A stretch of DNA of 52,534 nt from a virus. A program made the position numbers and the translations under genes. Each line of letters opens with the position of its first letter. The first letter of the stretch is position 1. Below, in pieces: positions 2,142-13,473 of this stretch. The stretch lies in the IMG/VR virus record IMGVR_UViG_3300036828_000700, positions 1-52,534 of that record. One strand, 5' to 3'. The notes beneath the pieces were generated by a model. It searched no databases, was not told the DNA's origin, and worked only from the letters and a program-made list of their open reading frames with translations.

Positions 2142-2373
2142 ATTGATTTAGGTGGACGAGGTCTTGCCGACGAACTTGGATGCGCCAACGGCCACGGGCA
2201 TCGCGGAAAGCCCGATAACCAAACTCCGCGAGAACGTCACCCTGATAGAGCCACTTGTAAATGGTTTTGGGTCTTCGCATCACGAGCACCGCGAACTGGC
2301 TTACCGGAATCCAGCGATCCCGTTCTCCTTCCTTAAGCCAGGGCGGCTGGGCCTTGCTGATCCGCACGCTCAT
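2140..2373 (-). CDS. HTH_17/MerR-type DNA-binding protein
   Basis: 77 residues. The core WIPVSQFAVLVMRRPKTIYK, followed by WLYQGD, matches the excisionase/HTH_17 pattern of a helix-turn-helix entered through a strand, followed by a wing (RGRWRIQVRRQDL). The start overlaps the portal stop (ATGA). It resembles the excisionase-like protein at 26889-27095 in the spacing of aFAxxVxRxxxxxYKWI. A regulator directly behind the portal gene, next to a promoter with an inverted repeat, may control the downstream late genes. Confidence 0.65.
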   Translation of the reverse strand: MSVRISKAQPPWLKEGERDRWIPVSQFAVLVMRRPKTIYKWLYQGDVLAEFGYRAFRDARGRWRIQVRRQDLVHLNQ

Positions 2374-4124
2374 GATTTTTTCTTCTGGTTCTTCAACTCC
2401 TGCATCTGCGCGGCCATCTGCGCCTGCATCTGGGCTTCCTTGTTCAGCCGGTCGAGCACCTTCTTGCGGTTGGGATAGCGCACGGCCTCGAGCAAGCCTT
2501 CGGTGTCGAGTGCGCCCATGTTCTTAAGGGCGAGTGCCATCTGCCGGATCATCACGCCAGAGAAAGGTTGTAGGGATGCCGGATCGACATGGGCCTCATA
2601 CTGCATCACTCGATTGGGGTCCACTGGCTGCCAACGGAGAGTGCCGAAGCCGTCCGCTCGCGGGTCCGCGTACAACCTTTCGTCTTTGGTGAACTGGGCC
2701 ATCGTCGCAAAGATCAGATAGGCCAATCGCCGGATCGGCTCGTACATGAGGCGAGCACGGCCACGCGTTAGCGTTTGCCCCTGCATCAAGCTGCCGGTGA
2801 AGAGATCGTTTGAGACGTTGCCCTGTGGCGTTTTTCCCATACGCGGATCGGAAAAGCCCTGGAGCAGACGCTGCTTGGTGAGCAGCAGCTCAGAGGCCTG
2901 AATTCCCTCACCGCTTCCTTTTGGCTGCACCAGCGTAGGAACGGGCGAGCCTTGCGCGATCATCTGGGTTTCACCCGGCACACCACCGAATCGTTCGGTA
3001 TCGATTCCCGTCGATTCATCGATGAACCAGATGCCGTTGAGCAGGCGCACCATGTTCTCAAAGTCCTGGGTCACGAACCTTTCGGCCATGTCCTGCAGGG
3101 CTTTGGAATACCTGAACGGAGGAGGTGCCCAGAATCCATGGAGCGCCGGCATCCCCACAAAACGAACCACGGGGAACTCGCCATGCCAGTAGGGATTCTC
3201 GCCGTCGAACAGGATGATGTTATTGCACTCCACGATCATACGGCCGCGCGGGTAGCGCATCCGGTAGTCCTGACGGGCCATTCCTGAGAATTCGATCGGC
3301 TCGTTCTTGCCGCCAGTGGTGCGGACCCGGGAATTGTCGCGCAGGAACAGGGTGCGGACGCGCACGCGGGCATCGCCGGGAGTGCTGCTCACTGGCAGAC
3401 CAGGAATCATTCCCTGCATGGGGCCAGTGGGCACTTCGAGTCCGAACACTCCGCGGCGACCCATTGAGGACAGGGGCAGCGGTTCTGGTGACCGATTGAG
3501 CGTGACCCGCTGGGCTGGGACAGGCCAGTACTGCTTCACCACGTCGAGCCACATATGGTCCTCGAGGATGACGTACTGCCATTTCTTGTCATCGATGGAA
3601 TACGGGTCGGGATAGACCGTCTCAGGGTCGCGCCAGTACGCGGTAGTGTCGCCGCGGCCATTGCGGAGATCGTTGTCGTAACCGACTTGGATGAATCCGC
3701 AACCGCAGAAGAAGGACCACATCAGGGCGTATAGGATGTTGAGATTGACCTGAGAGTCCCGCCACTGGGCCTGCAGACAGGCCTCCGCGTTTTCATCCTG
3801 GTCGTAGTTGGCGAAGGTCTTGACGATATAGATGCGGGGGTCGATGTCAGTCAGGTCGATCGCTTCCATGAAGCCCAGCACCTGGGCCTCCGGAATCCGC
3901 ATCGTCGGCCGGAAGATCGGAGTTTCAGTATCGCGGGGAAAGAGGTTGTAGGAATCCCTTATTTGTCGGAACCACTCGTCTCCGAGCTGATCTTTTCTTT
4001 GCTGCTGGGCGATTCTTTGGAGGTTGTCGATTTGCTGGCAGATGCGGGATTCCGCCGCGAGCTGCTCTTTGTCGGAATCGCTGACGCGGTCTGCGAGGCG
4101 ACGGACGGTAGCTCTATTCGCCAC
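2370..4124 (-). CDS. Portal protein
   Basis: 584 residues, the length expected of a podovirus-type portal, forming the dodecameric ring through which DNA is packaged and ejected. The N-terminal third has the usual WFRQIRDSYN...IPEAQVLGF...DPRIYIVKTF organisation. The centre carries FPVVRFVGMP and an ALQDMAERFVTQDFENMVRL region, and the C-terminus is a Gln/Lys-rich helix. GTG start at 4124 preceded by GGAG. The call rests on overall architecture, size and position next to terminase genes and upstream of scaffold/capsid genes. Confidence 0.8.
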   Translation of the reverse strand: MANRATVRRLADRVSDSDKEQLAAESRICQQIDNLQRIAQQQRKDQLGDEWFRQIRDSYNLFPRDTETPIFRPTMRIPEAQVLGFMEAIDLTDIDPRIYIVKTFANYDQDENAEACLQAQWRDSQVNLNILYALMWSFFCGCGFIQVGYDNDLRNGRGDTTAYWRDPETVYPDPYSIDDKKWQYVILEDHMWLDVVKQYWPVPAQRVTLNRSPEPLPLSSMGRRGVFGLEVPTGPMQGMIPGLPVSSTPGDARVRVRTLFLRDNSRVRTTGGKNEPIEFSGMARQDYRMRYPRGRMIVECNNIILFDGENPYWHGEFPVVRFVGMPALHGFWAPPPFRYSKALQDMAERFVTQDFENMVRLLNGIWFIDESTGIDTERFGGVPGETQMIAQGSPVPTLVQPKGSGEGIQASELLLTKQRLLQGFSDPRMGKTPQGNVSNDLFTGSLMQGQTLTRGRARLMYEPIRRLAYLIFATMAQFTKDERLYADPRADGFGTLRWQPVDPNRVMQYEAHVDPASLQPFSGVMIRQMALALKNMGALDTEGLLEAVRYPNRKKVLDRLNKEAQMQAQMAAQMQELKNQKKKS

Positions 4125-4632: not shown

Positions 4633-5448
4633 TCACCACACACCTTCCAGCTTGTCACCCACTTTCGGTTTAAAAATTTGGGTTTTCACCATCCACTTCT
4701 CGTGCAGACGCATGGCCGGATCATAATCGTAGTCGAGGGGGAAACGCTCCTGACCCTCCTTCTCCTCAAGCAGACGGCGCGACTGACCCGCGTTCTTGGG
4801 CGGCGGGTACTGATCGAGAGCGACCGCCGCGATGGCGGCCGCGACGAAGATATCATCGTGACCGCGCTTGACCTCCCAGCGCACCGTGAGATCATCGCGC
4901 ATACAGAAACCCATCTGGGCAACCAGCCGCTTGTCACGGACCTTGAGGAAGCCATGAGTTGCACCTGGATCGATTGGCCGGATGAACTCCCGAAAAACGA
5001 TGAGCATCTTCTGGCGCGATCGGTATGTGGTTTCCCAACCCAGCGCTTTCCCGATGTGCTTGTACCGCTTGTCGTCTTTGCCCAGCCATCCGTAAAGATT
5101 CGGGTAGTGGTATTTGTCACGAAGCAGCTTGTTAACCTGGCTTCCATCGCCGCCCGTCTGCTCCACGTTCACCAGCGCCTTGTTGTAGTAGCGACCGAGC
5201 GCGTTGACCGTCCAGGCAAACTCCTCGACTCCTAGGCGGTGCGCGAAGGTGAAGGCCTGATTACCAGTCATGCCGTTCCAGCATACTGCGGCCGAAAAAT
5301 CGCCTTTTGCGGTCCCATCCGGATCGAGATTGCCGCGAGCTGCATCGGCACCGAGATAGTACTTATCGCCTTCGATCGGTTGCTCCCAGATCCACAGCGG
5401 CGAGGACTCTCCGCGGCCGCGGCGCAGTTGGATGGGAAAATCACTCAT
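4633..5448 (-). CDS. Terminase large subunit, nuclease half
   Basis: 271 residues carrying only the RNase H-like nuclease domain of a large terminase, which cuts concatemeric DNA at the portal. The first strand holds GADAARG (Asp about 35), then GDFSAAV, the VNVEQTGGDG loop (Glu about 96, Asp about 101), and the C-terminal GHDDIFVAAAIA (Asp about 198), which together give the acidic metal site. The protein begins with PLWIWEQPIEGDKYYLG, the sequence that normally follows the ATPase domain in a single chain. No Walker motifs are present. They are in the separate gene at 6533-7504. Start overlaps the previous stop. Confidence 0.85.
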   Translation of the reverse strand: MSDFPIQLRRGRGESSPLWIWEQPIEGDKYYLGADAARGNLDPDGTAKGDFSAAVCWNGMTGNQAFTFAHRLGVEEFAWTVNALGRYYNKALVNVEQTGGDGSQVNKLLRDKYHYPNLYGWLGKDDKRYKHIGKALGWETTYRSRQKMLIVFREFIRPIDPGATHGFLKVRDKRLVAQMGFCMRDDLTVRWEVKRGHDDIFVAAAIAAVALDQYPPPKNAGQSRRLLEEKEGQERFPLDYDYDPAMRLHEKWMVKTQIFKPKVGDKLEGVW

Positions 5449-5800
5449 GAAGTTGCCACCCCTGCAGGGTGCGAAGAATCCGATGCTTTAGTCGATCGGC
5501 GGCGTCGTCCACTTCGTTGTAGTCCGCCACTGAGGTCGCCGCGAAGAACGTCGGACACTGGACCTTTTCAGGGTTGGAAGCCATGCCAGTGACCATGACC
5601 GAAATCGCCCCTGGCAGGTTGCTCCAGTCCAAACCCCACTCCCAGCCTTTCATCAGCGGTTCATCCCTGAGCATCTCGTTGAGCACAGCTCCAACCGCCT
5701 GACACAGCCCCAGCGGGTCGCGCCGGAACGCCACATCGAGATCGATGTGATCGCGAATGATCTCCTGCTCAGAGGCGAGGTGCCAGCCCTTGCGTTTCAT
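5441..5800 (-). CDS. Hypothetical protein between terminase halves
   Basis: 119 residues, helical, with no recognised family. It contains a conserved-looking DPLGLCQAVGAVLNEMLRDE helix, a hydrophobic GAISVMVTGMA segment and a C-terminal ADRLKHRILRTLQGWQ helix. Four-base overlaps on both sides indicate tight coupling with its neighbours. It is one of the genes separating the two terminase halves. Confidence 0.7.
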   Translation of the reverse strand: MKRKGWHLASEQEIIRDHIDLDVAFRRDPLGLCQAVGAVLNEMLRDEPLMKGWEWGLDWSNLPGAISVMVTGMASNPEKVQCPTFFAATSVADYNEVDDAADRLKHRILRTLQGWQLHE

Positions 5801-6399
5801 TTTCCAGTCGTCAGCAGTCGCTGCATCTGGTCGAGAATTTTGGCCTGTGCTGGGGGCCAGTGTCCCTGCCGTTCAACCCACTCCTGCCCCTGACTCTTGG
5901 GGAACATGTAGCCGCGCATGAACATATCGAGATAACTCTGGTTCATGAACTGGTCGAAGGATCGGTTGTCACCTTCGCGACCTCCACTGGCTTTGAAATC
6001 TTTCTGCTCCTCCTGCCAGTGCTGCTGCGCCAATTCCATATCGCGCGGAGTCATCGCCTGCCGAAACTGCTGCTTGAGGTTCCACCACGCAGGATGCACT
6101 GGCTCCCCGCTAGGCTTGACGTTACCCAGATAATGCATCGCCTCGGTGGTGATGATGTCCTGCAACTCCTGCGGGGTCTTGGGCCGCGCCGCCCGCAATT
6201 GGATGGACAGCTTTCCCGGCGCGGGGTTGTCCTCGCCCCAAGGCATGTAGGTTTCGTCCTGATAGGGACCAGCGGCTCTCGTTACATTGATCGGTACATT
6301 GGCAAGCAGTGGGTACTGGCGATTCACTGCCTGCACTGCGGCGGTATACGAAGGATCATCCGCAGGATGCGTCGGTGCCAGTGGGATTCCTGCTGCCAT
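5797..6399 (-). CDS. Hypothetical protein between terminase halves
   Basis: 200 residues. Starts with a Pro-rich segment, then a domain including ELQDIITTEAMHYLGN, followed by Gln/Trp-rich helices (QHWQEEQKDF, FMNQSYLDMFMRGYMFP) and a C-terminal ILDQMQRLLT. The TTEAMHYLG stretch resembles a metallopeptidase helix but lacks HExxH, so no enzyme activity is claimed. Position suggests packaging or head assembly. Confidence 0.65.
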   Translation of the reverse strand: MAAGIPLAPTHPADDPSYTAAVQAVNRQYPLLANVPINVTRAAGPYQDETYMPWGEDNPAPGKLSIQLRAARPKTPQELQDIITTEAMHYLGNVKPSGEPVHPAWWNLKQQFRQAMTPRDMELAQQHWQEEQKDFKASGGREGDNRSFDQFMNQSYLDMFMRGYMFPKSQGQEWVERQGHWPPAQAKILDQMQRLLTTGK

Positions 6400-6402
6400 C
6401 TC

Positions 6403-6528
6403 TTAAACGCAACGCGCCTTGTGCCTAGTGTGGCAGCGGTTGCAGACGTACTTTCCACATCGCGGGCAGATCCGCGAGGTCTGGTCACCGCAGCTTATGC
6501 ACTTCTTCATCTCGACCGTTCGTTTCAT
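6403..6528 (-). CDS. Zinc-ribbon mini-protein (41 aa)
   Basis: MKRTVEMKKCISCGDQ followed by ICPRCGKYVCNRCHTRH and a C-terminal Cys. Four Cys pairs or Cys/His positions make two potential zinc knuckles. ATG 6528 is preceded by AGGG and begins 5 bases after the stop of the terminase ATPase gene. The spacing and metal-ligand pattern support a real gene. It could mediate protein or nucleic-acid contacts in the packaging complex, but no function is known. Confidence 0.7.
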   Translation of the reverse strand: MKRTVEMKKCISCGDQTSRICPRCGKYVCNRCHTRHKARCV

Positions 6529-6532
6529 TTCC

Positions 6533-7504
6533 CTACTCTGCGGGTGGCGGGATTTCCACTGACCCCATGAACCGCGGTTTACGGAGTGTCGATTCGGCCG
6601 CCTTCATTTCCCCCGGCAGAAAGGCCGGATCACCCGTGGAAACGAAGGCCTCCTCTGGATTTGTCGGATACTCTTGGTGAAACTTATCGACGTAACCTTG
6701 GCACCGATTCGGAATAGCCCAGCGCCGCCAACTGATCTGCTCAAGGTCGGCACCGTACAGCTCGACCAGCTCCTGTTCCTCCTGGTCGAGGTTCGAGGAC
6801 AGGACATTGTTGACCTCAACATCCATCCGCGAAACGGGATCCATCAGCCAGGAAATAAAGATCGGGGCGAACTGGTTTTTCCGCTCGACCGCCTCAATCC
6901 AGTAGTTGTAGAACGTCTCGCCCGCGCCCACCTTCCCGTTGGCGGTAGACTCGATGAGAATCATCGTGTCCTGCCGGTAAGCTACGGTCGAGATGAGCGC
7001 GGTGAATGCGTCCTCGGCCTGTTCGTAAAATGCAGCTTCGGATAGATGCAGCGCGGTGACGGTGAGTCCGCGTGCGCCTTCGACCGTTTTCGCGGTCGCG
7101 ATGCTGTAGAGCGATTCTCCATCCAGATGAGGAAATCGGAGTTCGTGCGCGGTTCTGAGCTGCTCCGGATCTAGGTTGCAGTCGTAACAGAGCGTGGTGT
7201 GGCCGGCGCGCGCATCGCGGAACATCGCACGCACGTTCTTGGCGCGGTGTGCGACTGACATCGCCACCGCATTGGGGAACGCGGTGCAATGAATGACGTT
7301 GAGAAAAGAACAGTGGGTGGAGATGCCAACGCGGCGGGCTTTCAGAATGATCGCCCACATCGGCAGGCCTTCGGCGGCCTGCTGCATGAGCCTATCGATA
7401 ACTAGGAGCTGGGAGGGATTCGGCTCAAACGGAACCTGAGCGGCGCGGTCGCGGTGCTTGATGCGGAACTTGGAGAAGTTGACGGCGCGGAGATCGAGGT
7501 ACAT
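6533..7504 (-). CDS. Terminase large subunit, ATPase half
   Basis: 323 residues holding only the packaging motor ATPase. NPSQLLVIDRL (30-39) is the adenine-binding Gln segment, LKARRVGIST (54-63) the terminase Walker A, VTALHLSEAA (149-158) the Walker B with catalytic Glu, and IESTANG (184-190) the coupling motif. It ends after YPTNPEEAFVSTGDPAF, where intact terminases pass into the nuclease domain, which here is a separate gene at 4633-5448. The start lies in a long frame with a weak ribosome site. Confidence 0.88.
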   Translation of the reverse strand: MYLDLRAVNFSKFRIKHRDRAAQVPFEPNPSQLLVIDRLMQQAAEGLPMWAIILKARRVGISTHCSFLNVIHCTAFPNAVAMSVAHRAKNVRAMFRDARAGHTTLCYDCNLDPEQLRTAHELRFPHLDGESLYSIATAKTVEGARGLTVTALHLSEAAFYEQAEDAFTALISTVAYRQDTMILIESTANGKVGAGETFYNYWIEAVERKNQFAPIFISWLMDPVSRMDVEVNNVLSSNLDQEEQELVELYGADLEQISWRRWAIPNRCQGYVDKFHQEYPTNPEEAFVSTGDPAFLPGEMKAAESTLRKPRFMGSVEIPPPAE

Positions 7505-7516
7505 GTTCCGGCCCTA

Positions 7517-7544
7517 GCAGTGGGTGCCCGAAAGCACCCACTGC
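7517..7544 (-). other. Perfect 11-bp hairpin before terminase
   Basis: GCAGTGGGTGC (7517-7527) and GCACCCACTGC (7534-7544) form an 11-bp perfect stem with a 6-nt loop in the gap between the Pro-rich gene and the terminase ATPase gene. No T-run follows on either strand, so it may attenuate transcription, stabilise or process mRNA, or be a protein-binding site. Confidence 0.55.
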
Positions 7545-7559
7545 CAACGAACTTGTCAT

Positions 7560-8207
7560 TCATTTCCTTACGGGCGTCGGCGCACTCTCACTAGGAGGTA
7601 GATTGCCCGGAGGTCCGGGCTTCGGAATCAGCGCTGCCTTGTAGCCTTCACCCGGAACGTAAACGATGACCAAGGCCTTGCCCTCTGGCACGGTAATGCC
7701 TGGTGGCAGAGCATCGGGCGGCAGCACAATCGGCGGCGTGGCATAGCCCGGCCACGGAGCGTCTCCACCCCAAGTGCCCAATGGCGGCGACGGCGGGTAG
7801 AAGATCGGCGGCATCGGATACGTCGGCGGATAGTAAATCGGCGGAGTCGGCCACGGCAGAGGTGCGCCTCCCCAAATGCCTAGAGGAGGAGGACCACCGC
7901 TAACAGGCGGATTCGGCCATACTGTCGGCGGTATCGGGTGCGCCGGATAAGGAGGCGGACCACCCGGAGCAATCGGATGCGCCGGATACCCCGGAGACGT
8001 CGGGGGGTAATAGATCGGTGGAGTGGGCCAAGGTATAGGGGCACCACCCCAAATCCCCGGTGGAGGTCCAGCACTGCCCGGTGGTGGAGTGGGCCACACT
8101 CCCGGTGGAATCGGGTGCTCAGGATGCCCCGGCCACCAGGGCGGCTTCTCATCGGGTGGCCGTGATGGCATCGGCATCGGAACGATCAACGCGTAAAATG
8201 GATCCAT
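7560..8207 (-). CDS. Proline-rich repeat protein
   Basis: 215 residues, over one third Pro. Three imperfect copies of a unit beginning G[IT]WGGAP and running through PWPTPPIYYPP are separated by PAHPI-type segments. The last 50 residues form a non-repetitive segment with a strand pair (KALVIVYVPGEGYKAALI). ATG 8207 is preceded by GAGG. Similar extended Pro/Tyr/Trp repeats act as flexible spacers or adhesive segments, but no function is assigned. It precedes the terminase gene in the late module. Confidence 0.65.
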   Translation of the reverse strand: MDPFYALIVPMPMPSRPPDEKPPWWPGHPEHPIPPGVWPTPPPGSAGPPPGIWGGAPIPWPTPPIYYPPTSPGYPAHPIAPGGPPPYPAHPIPPTVWPNPPVSGGPPPLGIWGGAPLPWPTPPIYYPPTYPMPPIFYPPSPPLGTWGGDAPWPGYATPPIVLPPDALPPGITVPEGKALVIVYVPGEGYKAALIPKPGPPGNLPPSESAPTPVRK

Positions 8208-8264
8208 AGTTTCCTCACTTCCTCCTCATCTTTTAAGGGTTTCGTATCAGCACATTGTTACCGT

Positions 8265-8474
8265 TCATCGGATTCTCGGTACCAGCAGCGGTCCACTGAG
8301 CAGACCCAGGGCTTGGAGCAGGACCACAACTAGGATCAGCGCGAGGATTGCCCGGATCACCACCCGCACTGGTTGAACCATGGGAATCTGCCCGATGAGC
8401 CAATCGATCAGATAAAAAATCAGCCCGAGAATCGCCAGATAGATGAGCAGCGCGATCAGATTCTCCAAGTTCAC
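8265..8474 (-). CDS. Two-TM membrane protein (Thivi_2564-like)
   Basis: 69 residues with two hydrophobic helices, about 5-28 and 37-62, separated by IGQIPMVQPVRVV, a layout seen in the Thivi_2564-type small phage membrane proteins. A holin role is possible (short, two TM segments, late module) but not shown. Start overlaps the previous stop by 4 bases. Confidence 0.65.
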   Translation of the reverse strand: MNLENLIALLIYLAILGLIFYLIDWLIGQIPMVQPVRVVIRAILALILVVVLLQALGLLSGPLLVPRIR

Positions 8475-8947
8475 ATCGCTACCGTGCCGCGGACCGATCC
8501 CTGATGTCGTTGTCGTCGCTCATTGGCAACCCTTGAAATCTCGCGATAACAGCCCTCGCTGCACGCCCGCAGCGCCTTCAGCTCGTTGGTAATTTCGTCG
8601 CGGATCACAATCTCCCCAGCGAAGCGGCCACCCGGGAGCACTTTCTTGCAGTGGTCGCAGAGCATCGCGGTGCGCGTGTTCTCGAGCTGCTGCAGACGCT
8701 TGGCGCAGCGGTCCAGCGTACCCTTCATGAAGTCGCAGAGCTGGCGCAGATTCTGCTCCGTGAAGTTCTTGTTGAGGTAGTCGATGGTTAGCGCACCGAG
8801 CTGCTCATAAAGCCGGTCGATGTCTAAGGTCGGCTCAAGCAGCGTGCCGTTACCGTTGTGATGCTCCTGCTCCTGCGGTCGCGGTTTCTTCTTCGCCGAC
8901 TTCTTTTTCTTCGTAGCGCCGAGGCTTCCCTCCATGTCGATTTCCAT
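8471..8947 (-). CDS. Hypothetical protein with zinc-like Cys pairs
   Basis: 158 residues from ATG 8947, placed 8 bases after GAGG. Residues about 10-35 are a Lys-rich basic tail, the middle is helical (YEQLGALTIDYLNKNF, LCDFMKGTLDRCAKRLQQLE), and CDHC plus CSEGC could bind zinc. A nucleic-acid contact is plausible from the basic tail. No family recognised. Confidence 0.65.
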   Translation of the reverse strand: MEIDMEGSLGATKKKKSAKKKPRPQEQEHHNGNGTLLEPTLDIDRLYEQLGALTIDYLNKNFTEQNLRQLCDFMKGTLDRCAKRLQQLENTRTAMLCDHCKKVLPGGRFAGEIVIRDEITNELKALRACSEGCYREISRVANERRQRHQGSVRGTVAM

Positions 8948-8952
8948 CACCG

Positions 8953-9159
8953 TCACCTCAACGTATTGATTGCGCGTTCACGCCTGACCTGATCGCGCAG
9001 GAACTGCTTATATTCGGGCCGCGTGAGCACATTGACCTGTCCGCACGCGGAACACTGGAACACCCACTCCTGTTCGCTCTCCTGGATGCATTTCATCGGC
9101 TGTCCACCGCGCACACAGTAGGGCGCGCGGTTGCCGCAGCTAGGTGGTTGCGGTCGCAT
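8953..9159 (-). CDS. Small zinc-ribbon-like protein
   Basis: 68 residues with an N-terminal CGNRAPYC, a single Cys in MKCIQES and CSACG. These ligands and the strand WVFQCSACGQVNVL suggest a zinc ribbon. The C-terminus is a basic helix (PEYKQFLRDQVRRERAI). ATG 9159 overlaps the stop of the upstream gene; a TTG lies one codon earlier. Function unknown. Confidence 0.6.
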   Translation of the reverse strand: MRPQPPSCGNRAPYCVRGGQPMKCIQESEQEWVFQCSACGQVNVLTRPEYKQFLRDQVRRERAINTLR

Positions 9160-9887
9160 CAAAGTACAACCCCTACGGCGAAGATGTTGCCGACCATGAC
9201 TGCGGCTGATCCAAAGACCCTGAATTCAATCGCGACCGCTGGGTAGAGCTTGGTGTCGGCATTGATGTCCATCTCCCACTGGGGCCACCCGGGTATCGGG
9301 GGATTTCCGTCCATGTTCAGATCGACCGTGTCCACCCTGAACATGGTCACGGTACGACTCTGCCCAGGCTCTATGGTCTCGGGGTCAGTGTCACCATTTC
9401 TTATGTCGGCGCAATGCGCGTAACCCAGATATGGATACATGGGCCGGTTGTTCTGCGAGGGGCGATCGACACCTAACCCCGTTGAGAAACTACCCCTGGC
9501 AGTGCCGCCCTTAACCAGCAGTGTCGCCATACTCAGAAACTGCACGCGGTTGGTTCCTGAAACCGGCGGCTGGATGCGGATTGGCTCGTTGCCAGTCGCA
9601 GACCCAGTACCGTAGGAACCTCCCTTACTGCCCGATGGAACTCGGTAGCCTGGTGGCCACGTGCCGGGAGCGATGTGAAGTGTGTTGTTGCCGGGTTGAA
9701 TGGTTCTCCAATTGGGGCTGCGATCCAGATAAAGGCAACCGTAGCCCGCAAACCCGCTCACCGCAGGGAACGACTGGCTAGCGCCTGAGTGACCTGAGAG
9801 CACATCGCTGCTGCCGCCCCCACCGGAAGGGTTATCGGGAATCTCTACCGAACCAGGCGTGCTTCCAACTACCGGATATTTAGCCAA
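9159..9887 (-). CDS. Predicted beta-rich structural protein
   Basis: 242 residues. The N-terminal 45 are Gly/Ser/Pro-rich, and the rest reads as alternating strands and loops (RVQFLSMATLLVKGG, RTVTMFRVDTVDLNMDG, YPAVAIEFRVFGSAAVMVG), typical of phage decoration or tail proteins. TTG start at 9887 with CGGAGGA 9 bases upstream. No family recognised. Confidence 0.6.
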   Translation of the reverse strand: MAKYPVVGSTPGSVEIPDNPSGGGGSSDVLSGHSGASQSFPAVSGFAGYGCLYLDRSPNWRTIQPGNNTLHIAPGTWPPGYRVPSGSKGGSYGTGSATGNEPIRIQPPVSGTNRVQFLSMATLLVKGGTARGSFSTGLGVDRPSQNNRPMYPYLGYAHCADIRNGDTDPETIEPGQSRTVTMFRVDTVDLNMDGNPPIPGWPQWEMDINADTKLYPAVAIEFRVFGSAAVMVGNIFAVGVVL

Positions 9888-10030
9888 TGGAAAAGATCCT
9901 CCGGTCGGAGCTGTACTGACTTGGTCGGGGTCGCCTTGGGTTTCGGATGTTTCTTTTTATGATGAGTCTTCGCCAGTGCCAGACTGGTCATCAAGAAGAA
10001 CGTCATCACCAACACAATTATTGACTTCAC
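9869..10030 (-). CDS. Secreted-type mini-protein with signal peptide
   Basis: 53 residues from GTG 10030, preceded by AGGTGAG. Residues 1-20 (MKSIIVLVMTFFLMTSLALA) form a classic Sec signal peptide, followed by a His/Lys-rich mature part (KTHHKKKHPKPKATP). Its 3' end overlaps the next gene by 19 bases. Export to the periplasm or membrane, perhaps at lysis or superinfection, is inference. Confidence 0.6.
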   Translation of the reverse strand: MKSIIVLVMTFFLMTSLALAKTHHKKKHPKPKATPTKSVQLRPEDLFHWLNIR

Positions 10031-10031
10031 A

Positions 10032-10619
10032 CTATCTCACCTGGAAGATGTCCTTCACCCCACGTCCTGTTGCCAGCGCTTTCTCCACCGTCTGGAAATC
10101 CGCCGCATCCTGGTCCGGTGTCACCGAACTCTCACGCGGATGCGGATTCAGACGCGGATGATCCGCAGGCAGACTAGCGGGGATATCCGTCCGCGGACCA
10201 TCCTTGGAGACATACGAATTCTCAAACAGACGCGCTGGCTGGGGACCTGCGGCCGTTTCCGCATTCGCACCGCCAATCACGATGGGATTCGGCCTCTTCT
10301 GGGAATGTGGCCGCCCTCGCTTGCGCTTCACGCGAGCTACGGGCTTCGGCTCTCGGGGGGAATGAGCCTCGACCTGCGGGCGGCCGACCTCAACTGTAGC
10401 AGCCGGTGGTGATGGAGGCTTGATCATTCCCGCTCGAGCACGCGGTACGAATAGTTCAGGAATCCCGCCGAAGTCCTGGGTCAGTTTGAGAAACCACTCA
10501 TCTGACTTGCCCACCGCTTCCTTCAACGCAGCACGCAGATCGACCGCGTCTCGAGCGGTCAGCGTGTCCCATTCGATTCCGCGCAACAGCTTTAAAAATT
10601 CCGGTCCAATCCCGGTCAT
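10032..10619 (-). CDS. Hypothetical protein with AT-hook-like basic segment
   Basis: 195 residues. An N-terminal helical part (EFLKLLRGIEWDTLTARDAV) is followed by a disordered Pro/Arg-rich middle with RVKRKRGRPHSQKRPNP, where RGRP is the AT-hook core, and a C-terminal helix near AADFQTVEKALATG. DNA contact through the basic segment is possible. No family recognised. Confidence 0.6.
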   Translation of the reverse strand: MTGIGPEFLKLLRGIEWDTLTARDAVDLRAALKEAVGKSDEWFLKLTQDFGGIPELFVPRARAGMIKPPSPPAATVEVGRPQVEAHSPREPKPVARVKRKRGRPHSQKRPNPIVIGGANAETAAGPQPARLFENSYVSKDGPRTDIPASLPADHPRLNPHPRESSVTPDQDAADFQTVEKALATGRGVKDIFQVR

Positions 10620-10620
10620 G

Positions 10621-10776
10621 CTAGTCTGGATCCAACGGTACGTCCTTGCTCAGGTCCAGCAACTGGTTCAAATAGTCCTGACAGTCATTCAACAACAACT
10701 GGTCGCTGACCTGCTGGCGTTTCTGCCCTAAGCTGGCTGCGAACTGCTTGATCTCTTCGTATTGATGATCGGTCAT
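10621..10776 (-). CDS. Small helical protein, tandem paralogue A
   Basis: 51 residues starting MTDHQYEEIKQFAASLG at 10776 behind GAGGACTG. It aligns with the upstream neighbour at 10778-10969 over its whole length (RQQVSDQLLLNDCQDYLNQL against RQQVNDQQLLDRCQKFLSDL, and PLDPD against PLEPD). The pair is a tandem gene duplication. Amphipathic helical protein of unknown function. Confidence 0.65.
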   Translation of the reverse strand: MTDHQYEEIKQFAASLGQKRQQVSDQLLLNDCQDYLNQLLDLSKDVPLDPD

Positions 10777-10777
10777 C

Positions 10778-10969
10778 TCAGTCCTCATCAGGCGTTGGCT
10801 CCGGTGCCGGATCCGGCTCCAACGGCGCGTTCGCGTAGTTGACCAGCCCGACCAAGTCACTCAAAAATTTCTGACAACGGTCAAGCAACTGCTGATCGTT
10901 TACCTGCTGCCGAAGCTGCACCAGATTAGCCGCAAACACGGTGATCTCATCAAACTCGCTCTGAAGCAT
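10778..10969 (-). CDS. Small helical protein, tandem paralogue B
   Basis: 63 residues, beginning MLQSEFDEITVFAANLV. Paralogue of the gene at 10621-10776, with the same helix pattern plus an acidic Pro/Asp/Glu tail (APEPTPDED). One base separates its stop from the paralogue's start. Unknown function. Duplication and retention of both copies hints at a heteromeric pair. Confidence 0.65.
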   Translation of the reverse strand: MLQSEFDEITVFAANLVQLRQQVNDQQLLDRCQKFLSDLVGLVNYANAPLEPDPAPEPTPDED

Positions 10970-11850: not shown

Positions 11851-12627
11851 CGGAAAAGCGCTCAAACTGTTATCGGGTTTCTCACACGCTACGGCTCGCT
11901 CAGTCTCCATGGGTATCTCGCCTTGGTCGGCTCGCTTCATGATATCGGGTTACTCAACATCCGCGGCTCGCTCATCACGGTCGGGGTTTCTCCGACTTCA
12001 CGGCTCGCTCAGGTGTACCGGGGTGCTCATCTTTGGCGGCTCGCTCGACTGGAGCGGAATCCTCTCTTATCACGGCTCGCTCTGCTGTGTCGGAATTCTC
12101 AATATTGACGGCTCGCTCACTTCATCTGGGTGACTCCATCAAGTCGGCTCGCTCTCTGGGGAATCGGGTGTCTCGTTATTTACGGCTCGCTCTGAGGGGT
12201 CGGGTTACTCGCCAACGGCGGCTCGCTCACGAATTACGGGTGTTCTCTGATCGCGCGGCTCGCTTCCATGCTACGGGTGCCTCTTTGCTTACGGCTCGCT
12301 CTAACAAATCGGGGTGCTCCTCCGTAACGGCTCGCTCATGTATGTCGGGTTCCTCAATACTGGCGGCTCGCTCAGACTACACGGGCATCTCCTTGTTGAC
12401 GGCTCGCTCGCGCCATACGGATGTCTCACAGAATGCGGCTCGCTCAACTACCCTGGGTTTCTCGTGGACAGCGGCTCGCTCCGATGTTTGCGGGTGTCTC
12501 CTCATCCACGGCTCGCTTCTGGATAGTGGGTTTCTCACGCTGGACGGCTCGCTCATTCATCGCGGGTTAACTCAGCGAAGACGGCTCGCTCCACGGAGAC
12601 GGGTGACTCACAAATCTCGGCTCACGC
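11851..12627 (-). repeat. TIGR-type dual-spacer guide array (21 units)
   Basis: Tandem array with a 36-38 bp period. Minus-strand units read GAGCGAGCCG, a variable stretch of about 8 nt, GAGNNACCCG, and another variable stretch of about 8-10 nt. The first repeat is near-invariant, starting (plus-strand copies) at 11892, 11928, 11964, 12001, 12037, 12073, 12109, 12145, 12183, 12219, 12256, 12292, 12328, 12364, 12400, 12436, 12472, 12509, 12545 and 12582, with a degenerate copy at 12618. Three copies have AAG in place of the first GAG. The second repeat is degenerate in two to four positions. A further unit ends at a decayed repeat, 11851-11863. No two variable stretches look alike. Two short repeats with two ~9-nt spacers per 36 nt fit TIGR arrays, which yield ~36-nt dual-guide tigRNAs. 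CRISPR is excluded by repeat and spacer length. Transcription from the tas side is inferred. Confidence 0.9.
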
Positions 12628-13473
12628 CACCTTTATAAGCGTGCTGTGTCCCAGCTTCTCGATCGCATACGGCAGCGGCGGCTCCTTCTTGAACTTCCTC
12701 CGATACGCCTCTGCCCACCACTCCCGCAAAAAGATCTTCGTCGCCCACCGCTGCGCCCGCCGATCAATCCGCCCATCCGGTAACCGGCCCGCCTCGTAAA
12801 TCACCCGCATCTCCTTCTTGAACTTCTTCGCCGCCAGCGTCGCCCTGGCCGTCTCCGCATTCATCCCGCTCAAGTTGCGCTCCACCTCCAGGCGCTTGCG
12901 CTGCTCATACAACTTCCCGAATACACAGTCCTCCCGATTGTGAAACTTCATGAACGAATCCCCCAGCTTGTACGCTATCTGCTTCCCCAACGCACTCCAC
13001 GGCCGCTTCTCCCCCTTCCTCCACACCACCGTCGGATCCAATCCGTAGAACCTCCAGATCTTCGACGGCGTCGTCGCGATATCCATATTGATCGTAGCCA
13101 GTAATCCCGCCGAGATGATCGGTCCTACTCCAACGAACGAACGCGCCCACATCCCCATCCCCGTCGTCTCCTCCCTCGTGTACTGCTCCAGCATCGCAAA
13201 TATCGCCTTCTCCGTATCCCGATCCCTCCCCGCCAACCAACTCAGCAACTGCGCACTCGCCCCAGCCTCCTCCGTCTTCCTCGCCCTGTGTGCACTCGAT
13301 ATCCGAAACTGCTGCTGATCGTAATACGACTCCACCAGATACCTCACGATCGTCAGCCCCCTACTCGGATCCTCTGCCAGTCGAGCTACTGCGGCTTTCG
13401 CATCCGCCCTCAGCAAACTCGCCGTCTCCGGATTCACCATCTCCTCATCTACCACCAATTCCATTCTCGCCAT
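12622..13473 (-). CDS. tasA: Tas-like protein, IS110/Nop-type RNA-binding domain, no nuclease
   Basis: 283 residues. After a helical N-terminus (1-105), FVGVGPIISAGLLA (113-126) is a helix-hairpin-helix like that of the IS110 Transposase_20 domain, followed by WRFYGLDPT (140-148) and KGEKRPWSALGKQIAYKLGD (153-172), matching the GLxP and GK.R...K.. positions shared by IS110 and Nop56/58-type proteins. A basic helical C-terminus (205-283) follows. No DEDD/RuvC or HNH residues are visible, so it is not an IS110 transposase and resembles the nuclease-less TasA class of TIGR-Tas effectors. ATG 13473 has an excellent GGGAGGTGAT site. Its stop codon lies inside the first, degenerate repeat of the array. 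The symbol is by analogy. Confidence 0.82.
   Translation of the reverse strand: MARMELVVDEEMVNPETASLLRADAKAAVARLAEDPSRGLTIVRYLVESYYDQQQFRISSAHRARKTEEAGASAQLLSWLAGRDRDTEKAIFAMLEQYTREETTGMGMWARSFVGVGPIISAGLLATINMDIATTPSKIWRFYGLDPTVVWRKGEKRPWSALGKQIAYKLGDSFMKFHNREDCVFGKLYEQRKRLEVERNLSGMNAETARATLAAKKFKKEMRVIYEAGRLPDGRIDRRAQRWATKIFLREWWAEAYRRKFKKEPPLPYAIEKLGHSTLIKVA

Follow-up and report, generated by a model that had tools for sequence, protein, structure and literature searches.

A T4 gp17-like terminase large subunit encoded as two separate genes in uncultured temperate phages

Two intact open reading frames (ORFs) on the minus strand of IMG/VR virus record IMGVR_UViG_3300036828_000700 together encode the terminase large subunit (TerL), and three other genes lie between them (Table 1). 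We analyzed positions 1 to 52,534 of that record, referred to here as the window. Its ends are a 127-bp identical direct repeat, which suggests that the genome is complete. Its genes for a major head protein, a tyrosine integrase, RecT and DNA methyltransferases mark it as a temperate tailed phage. To our knowledge, TerL is a single chain of two domains almost universally. The hinge that joins the ATPase to the nuclease is central in models that link ATP hydrolysis to the movement of DNA. How did this gene come to be broken, and how might the two products work together?

Layout of the locus

In the direction of transcription, the ATPase half is followed by a 41-aa zinc-ribbon-like ORF, a 200-aa gene, a 119-aa gene and the nuclease half, and then by further genes and the portal. 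The genes are tightly packed: the 200-aa and 119-aa genes overlap by 4 nt, and the 119-aa gene overlaps the start of the nuclease half by 8 nt. A first-pass annotation had described TerL as two genes separated by a zinc ribbon and two genes of unknown function. Its coordinates and gene order are exact, and it correctly assigned the ATPase motifs to one ORF and the nuclease motifs to the other. The split of TerL is genuine.

Table 1. Genes of the split terminase locus in the window
Feature	Position	Strand	Basis or remark
TerL ATPase half, 323 aa	6533..7504	-	PHROG_2 and T4 gp17 profile match; ends in interdomain linker
Zinc-ribbon-like ORF, 41 aa	6403..6528	-	Weak zinc-ribbon matches
200-aa gene, no assigned function	5797..6399	-	No family match; position varies among relatives
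119-aa gene, no assigned function	5441..5800	-	Predicted alpha-beta-beta-beta-alpha fold
TerL nuclease half, 271 aa, RNase H fold	4633..5448	-	PHROG terminase, T4-family gp17 nuclease and fold match
Portal protein, downstream, same module	2370..4124	-	PHROG_156 E=5e-7; Pfam P22_portal E=0.005, below its cut-off

Both halves most resemble T4 gp17. The ATPase half matches the TerL family PHROG_2 (E=7e-14), and its profile finds T4 gp17 at E=1e-20, T4-family gp17 being its best solved relative by sequence. A variant Walker A of the lysine-shifted kind (LKARRVGIST, with K55), a Walker B-like motif (LHLSEAAF, with S155-E156) and motif III (ESTANG, beginning at E185) all lie within this one ORF; K55, E156 and E185 are unchanged across 52 homologues. 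The nuclease half matches PHROG terminase families (E=3e-7 and 6e-6) and, as its best match by sequence, the T4-family gp17 nuclease (E=6e-15). T4 gp17 is also the best PDB match of its AlphaFold model (E=8.5e-10). The acidic triad of the RNase H fold is present (D35, E96 and D198-D199). T4 gp17 itself is one chain, and the break in the window's TerL maps to its interdomain region.

Two other genes of the window deserve mention. Upstream of TerL, at 8471-8956, lies a gene for a 161-aa coiled-coil, zinc-finger-like protein that is conserved in the split relatives described below, with similar-looking genes in contigs L021 and L134; it is possibly the small terminase subunit. At 12622-13473 a 283-aa protein resembles IS110-type transposases (PHROG_4285, E=3e-33).

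Descent from a single-chain TerL

The identical split occurs in six further IMG/VR contigs from six different metagenomes, five at 78-93% protein identity and one (L021) at 55%. In all seven members the two domains are on separate ORFs, never on a single polypeptide. Other genomes with the same break, which the first-pass annotation had proposed to look for, thus exist. The same annotation had raised two objections to its own reading. One was a single-chain TerL elsewhere in the genome; six-frame translation of the window, an apparently complete genome, holds neither a second ATPase half nor a second nuclease half. The other, an assembly error joining the pieces, is refuted by the recurrence of the split in seven independent contigs.

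Its view that the genes are functional and not decayed also stands, as far as substitution patterns can tell. Between the window and its close relatives, dN/dS is 0.06-0.11 for the ATPase half and, where dS is unsaturated, 0.06-0.12 for the nuclease half, resembling the 0.08 of the portal gene. The catalytic residues of both halves are invariant across the seven split loci. Both pieces of TerL, judged by these rates, remain under purifying selection. An assembly error or a decayed terminase has nothing in its favor apart from the oddity of the arrangement. With seven independent contigs, zero internal stops, low dN/dS and catalytic residues retained against it, we consider it practically out of the question. 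Two scans of GTDB genome contigs found no prophage copies. Two more distant loci, L045 and L053, look split as well, but their reading frames overlap where the gene is interrupted, and we set them aside as probable frameshifts.

Was the gene ever whole? In about 70 sister loci (35-45% identity in the nuclease), the ATPase and nuclease are found in one ORF, mostly of 580-620 aa, and the ATPase half of the window aligns to the N-terminal domain of these proteins. The seven split loci form one clade nested among the sisters, and its SH-aLRT support is 100% whether the tree is built from both domains, the ATPase or the nuclease; these trees are of the 'quick' type and have long branches. On these trees a single change of state, from fused to split, is needed. 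We measured the linker as the stretch between F295, where the conserved ATPase core ends, and the first aspartate of the nuclease. Placed end to end, the split halves have linkers of 59-71 residues (62 in the window), compared with 62 in the fused L022 and 24-57 in other fused TerLs. Since this resembles the fused relatives with the longest linkers, the two domains have apparently kept all their sequence, which puts the break within the linker. Alignment likewise maps the ends of the halves to the linker of fused relatives, where the first-pass annotation had placed the break. The trees and alignments show that an ancestral T4 gp17-like single-chain TerL underwent one break, in the linker that joined ATPase to nuclease.

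The gap and the origin of the break

The distance between the halves ranges from 201 to 1232 nt among the split loci, in all three frame offsets, and what fills it differs. The window has the zinc ribbon, the 200-aa and the 119-aa genes; L003 has a 63-aa ORF followed by the 200-aa and 119-aa genes. In L002 and L004 the 119-aa gene stands alone, in L004 within 301 nt. L005 has a 51-aa gene, related to one at 10621-10860 of the window, and then the 119-aa and 200-aa genes in swapped order. L006 has a 38-aa ORF and the 119-aa gene, with the 200-aa gene after the nuclease. In L021 a 70-aa ORF fills the roughly 200 nt. The earlier suggestion that the intervening proteins may help the halves to assemble finds no support: the zinc-ribbon ORF has no match in the related split loci and is found in the window only, the 200-aa gene moves (between the halves in three of seven loci, after the nuclease in two, not found in one close relative), and the 119-aa gene occurs nowhere on the 44.6-kb contig of L021, the deepest split member, which may be incomplete. 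Differences of this kind mark the gap genes as shuffling cargo, not a fixed scaffold. In L006, a 909-aa ORF (7103-9832) has been inserted after the 200-aa gene, ahead of the portal region; the window has none at that place.

The 70-aa ORF of L021 offers a clue to the cause. It overlaps the genes on either side, the ATPase stop at its own start and the nuclease start at its end, and it matches HNH endonucleases (PHROG_59, E=7e-6; PHROG_959, 0.003) and NUMOD4 (0.04, below the Pfam cut-off). The catalytic HNH part is gone from this short ORF. Such a remnant is found at the break in one of the seven split loci and is absent from the window's gap. Its presence in L021 suggests that insertion of an HNH homing endonuclease probably caused the fission, a reading drawn from this one short remnant. 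An HNH gene inserted in the linker would have provided the new stop and the new start; later it would have been cut down to a remnant, as in L021, or would have given way, as in the window, to small cargo genes unrelated to it.

There is precedent for breaks of this sort. Aeh1 nrdA is split by the HNH endonuclease gene mobE and is fully functional, T4 gene 60 is split by mobA, and in phage 25 the 43A and 43B products purify together and show activity (PMC2988022). The Aeh1 case is a close parallel: an HNH endonuclease interrupted the gene for a phage enzyme, and the pieces function together, as the TerL halves may do. It differs in that the enzyme is another one and the Aeh1 endonuclease is still intact. 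Homing-endonuclease insertion is a likely way for a hallmark gene to be split and yet retained.

In keeping with such an origin, homing elements have repeatedly invaded the TerL of relatives. LAGLIDADG inteins of several hundred residues occur in the fused TerLs of L014 (6999-10037), L056 (6369-9206), L069 (3904-6762) and L128 (4729-7842). Their sites differ: the intein of L014 interrupts the nuclease, that of L056 the ATPase, and that of L069 lies close to where the ATPase ends. L003 and L019 carry an intact HNH gene upstream of the TerL ATPase (L019 6506-7045; PHROG_826, E=5e-50), flanked by a treble-clef-like gene and a small membrane-protein gene. L134 has both a full TerL and, 2 kb upstream, a second, nuclease-only paralogue in which the GHDD motif has become GHDG (5698-6954 and 8898-10697); a gene with an AP2 domain, probably a homing endonuclease, directly precedes the full TerL.

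A probable packaging motor in two chains

The split clade is of interest because the same operation, performed on T4 gp17, was damaging: gp17 split at the linker kept its ATPase and nuclease activities, but translocation was abolished (PMC3012670). Function without a covalent link is therefore not to be taken for granted. Either the interface between the halves is stronger in the split clade, or pumping is left to the ATPase and the nuclease does no more than cut.

We favor the former. The two polypeptides would be co-expressed from one operon, in which gene order repeats the domain order of the fused gene, and would most likely assemble non-covalently at the portal. Nuclease subunits would dock on a gp17-like ATPase ring through the interdomain surface; the ATPase ring would pump DNA, while the nuclease ring would grip or guide it and make the headful cut. 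Taken as a whole, we think it likely that this TerL arose by gene fission, with a single break in the linker, selection on both pieces, an HNH insertion as the cause and non-covalent association at the portal. That the naturally split gp17-like motor translocates without a covalent hinge, with force passing through a protein-protein interface, we hold to be somewhat better than an even bet. If so, the linker is unnecessary as a mechanical connection.

The converse arrangement, in which the translocating ring consists of the ATPase half only and the nuclease half is recruited just for cutting, would uncouple pumping from cutting. It accords with the separate translation of the two genes and with T4 nuclease-centre mutants that still package linear DNA (PMC3012670). 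In the same system, however, the translocation groove lies on the gp17 C-domain and translocation fails in an R406 mutant (PMC3012670), and in the split clade the two halves evolve at similar rates, with no sign that constraint on the nuclease half has relaxed beyond the active site; we consider this arrangement unlikely. More improbable still is that the 119-aa protein is an obligate adaptor holding the halves together. The gene lies between them in six of the seven split loci, overlaps the nuclease start, is under purifying selection and is found only in these phages, with no homologues in phage records. Against this stand its absence from the possibly incomplete L021 contig and its identity of 53-90%, below the conservation of both TerL halves. 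Its predicted fold has no significant PDB match, merely a loose dsRBD-like topology. Even so, if any gap gene acts as a helper in the six close relatives, it is most probably this one.

Could the chain be made whole after transcription or translation? The TerL coding region of ICP1 also lies in two pieces, split by an intron and joined by RNA splicing (PMC10448857), terL of IBB_35 is split by inteins (PMC3322345), and the inteins of L014, L056, L069 and L128 show that such elements reach related TerLs. Yet neither the window nor five relatives contain an Rfam match to a group I or II intron, and the gap, whose content differs in every relative, narrows to 201-301 nt in L021 and L004, where it is filled by an ORF. 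The halves end within the linker without extra intein-sized sequence. Restoration of a joined chain by a group I or II intron or by protein trans-splicing is thus very improbable; a split intein in particular was ruled out, the ends of the halves matching the linker of fused relatives. Ribosomal frameshifting or readthrough was ruled out by the spacing and frame offsets of the halves.

By persisting with a split TerL, this small clade of uncultured temperate phages provides a natural system for testing the need for a covalent link, and with it how the motor couples ATP hydrolysis to the movement of DNA. It also carries a warning for annotation: phages with a split TerL will be missed or mislabelled by searches for the full-length protein.

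A TerL in two genes is not in itself a new idea, since Arthrobacter cluster AY phages have already been reported to carry the ATPase and nuclease domains in separate genes, in one sentence and without analysis or experiment (PMC11920828; PMC12820723). Relative to the open-access literature, what is new here is an apparently independent gp17-like case, with genes between the halves, trees that trace it to one origin, and a probable cause for the break. The AY phages are temperate as well, and the ATPase and nuclease genes are consecutive in BillyTP (genes 2-3; BillyTP record) and BlueShadow (2-3). They differ from the window in that the two genes overlap by 17 nt and nothing lies between them. 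Profile comparison detects no relation between the TerL of AY phages and that of the window, so the AY split is apparently an independent event.
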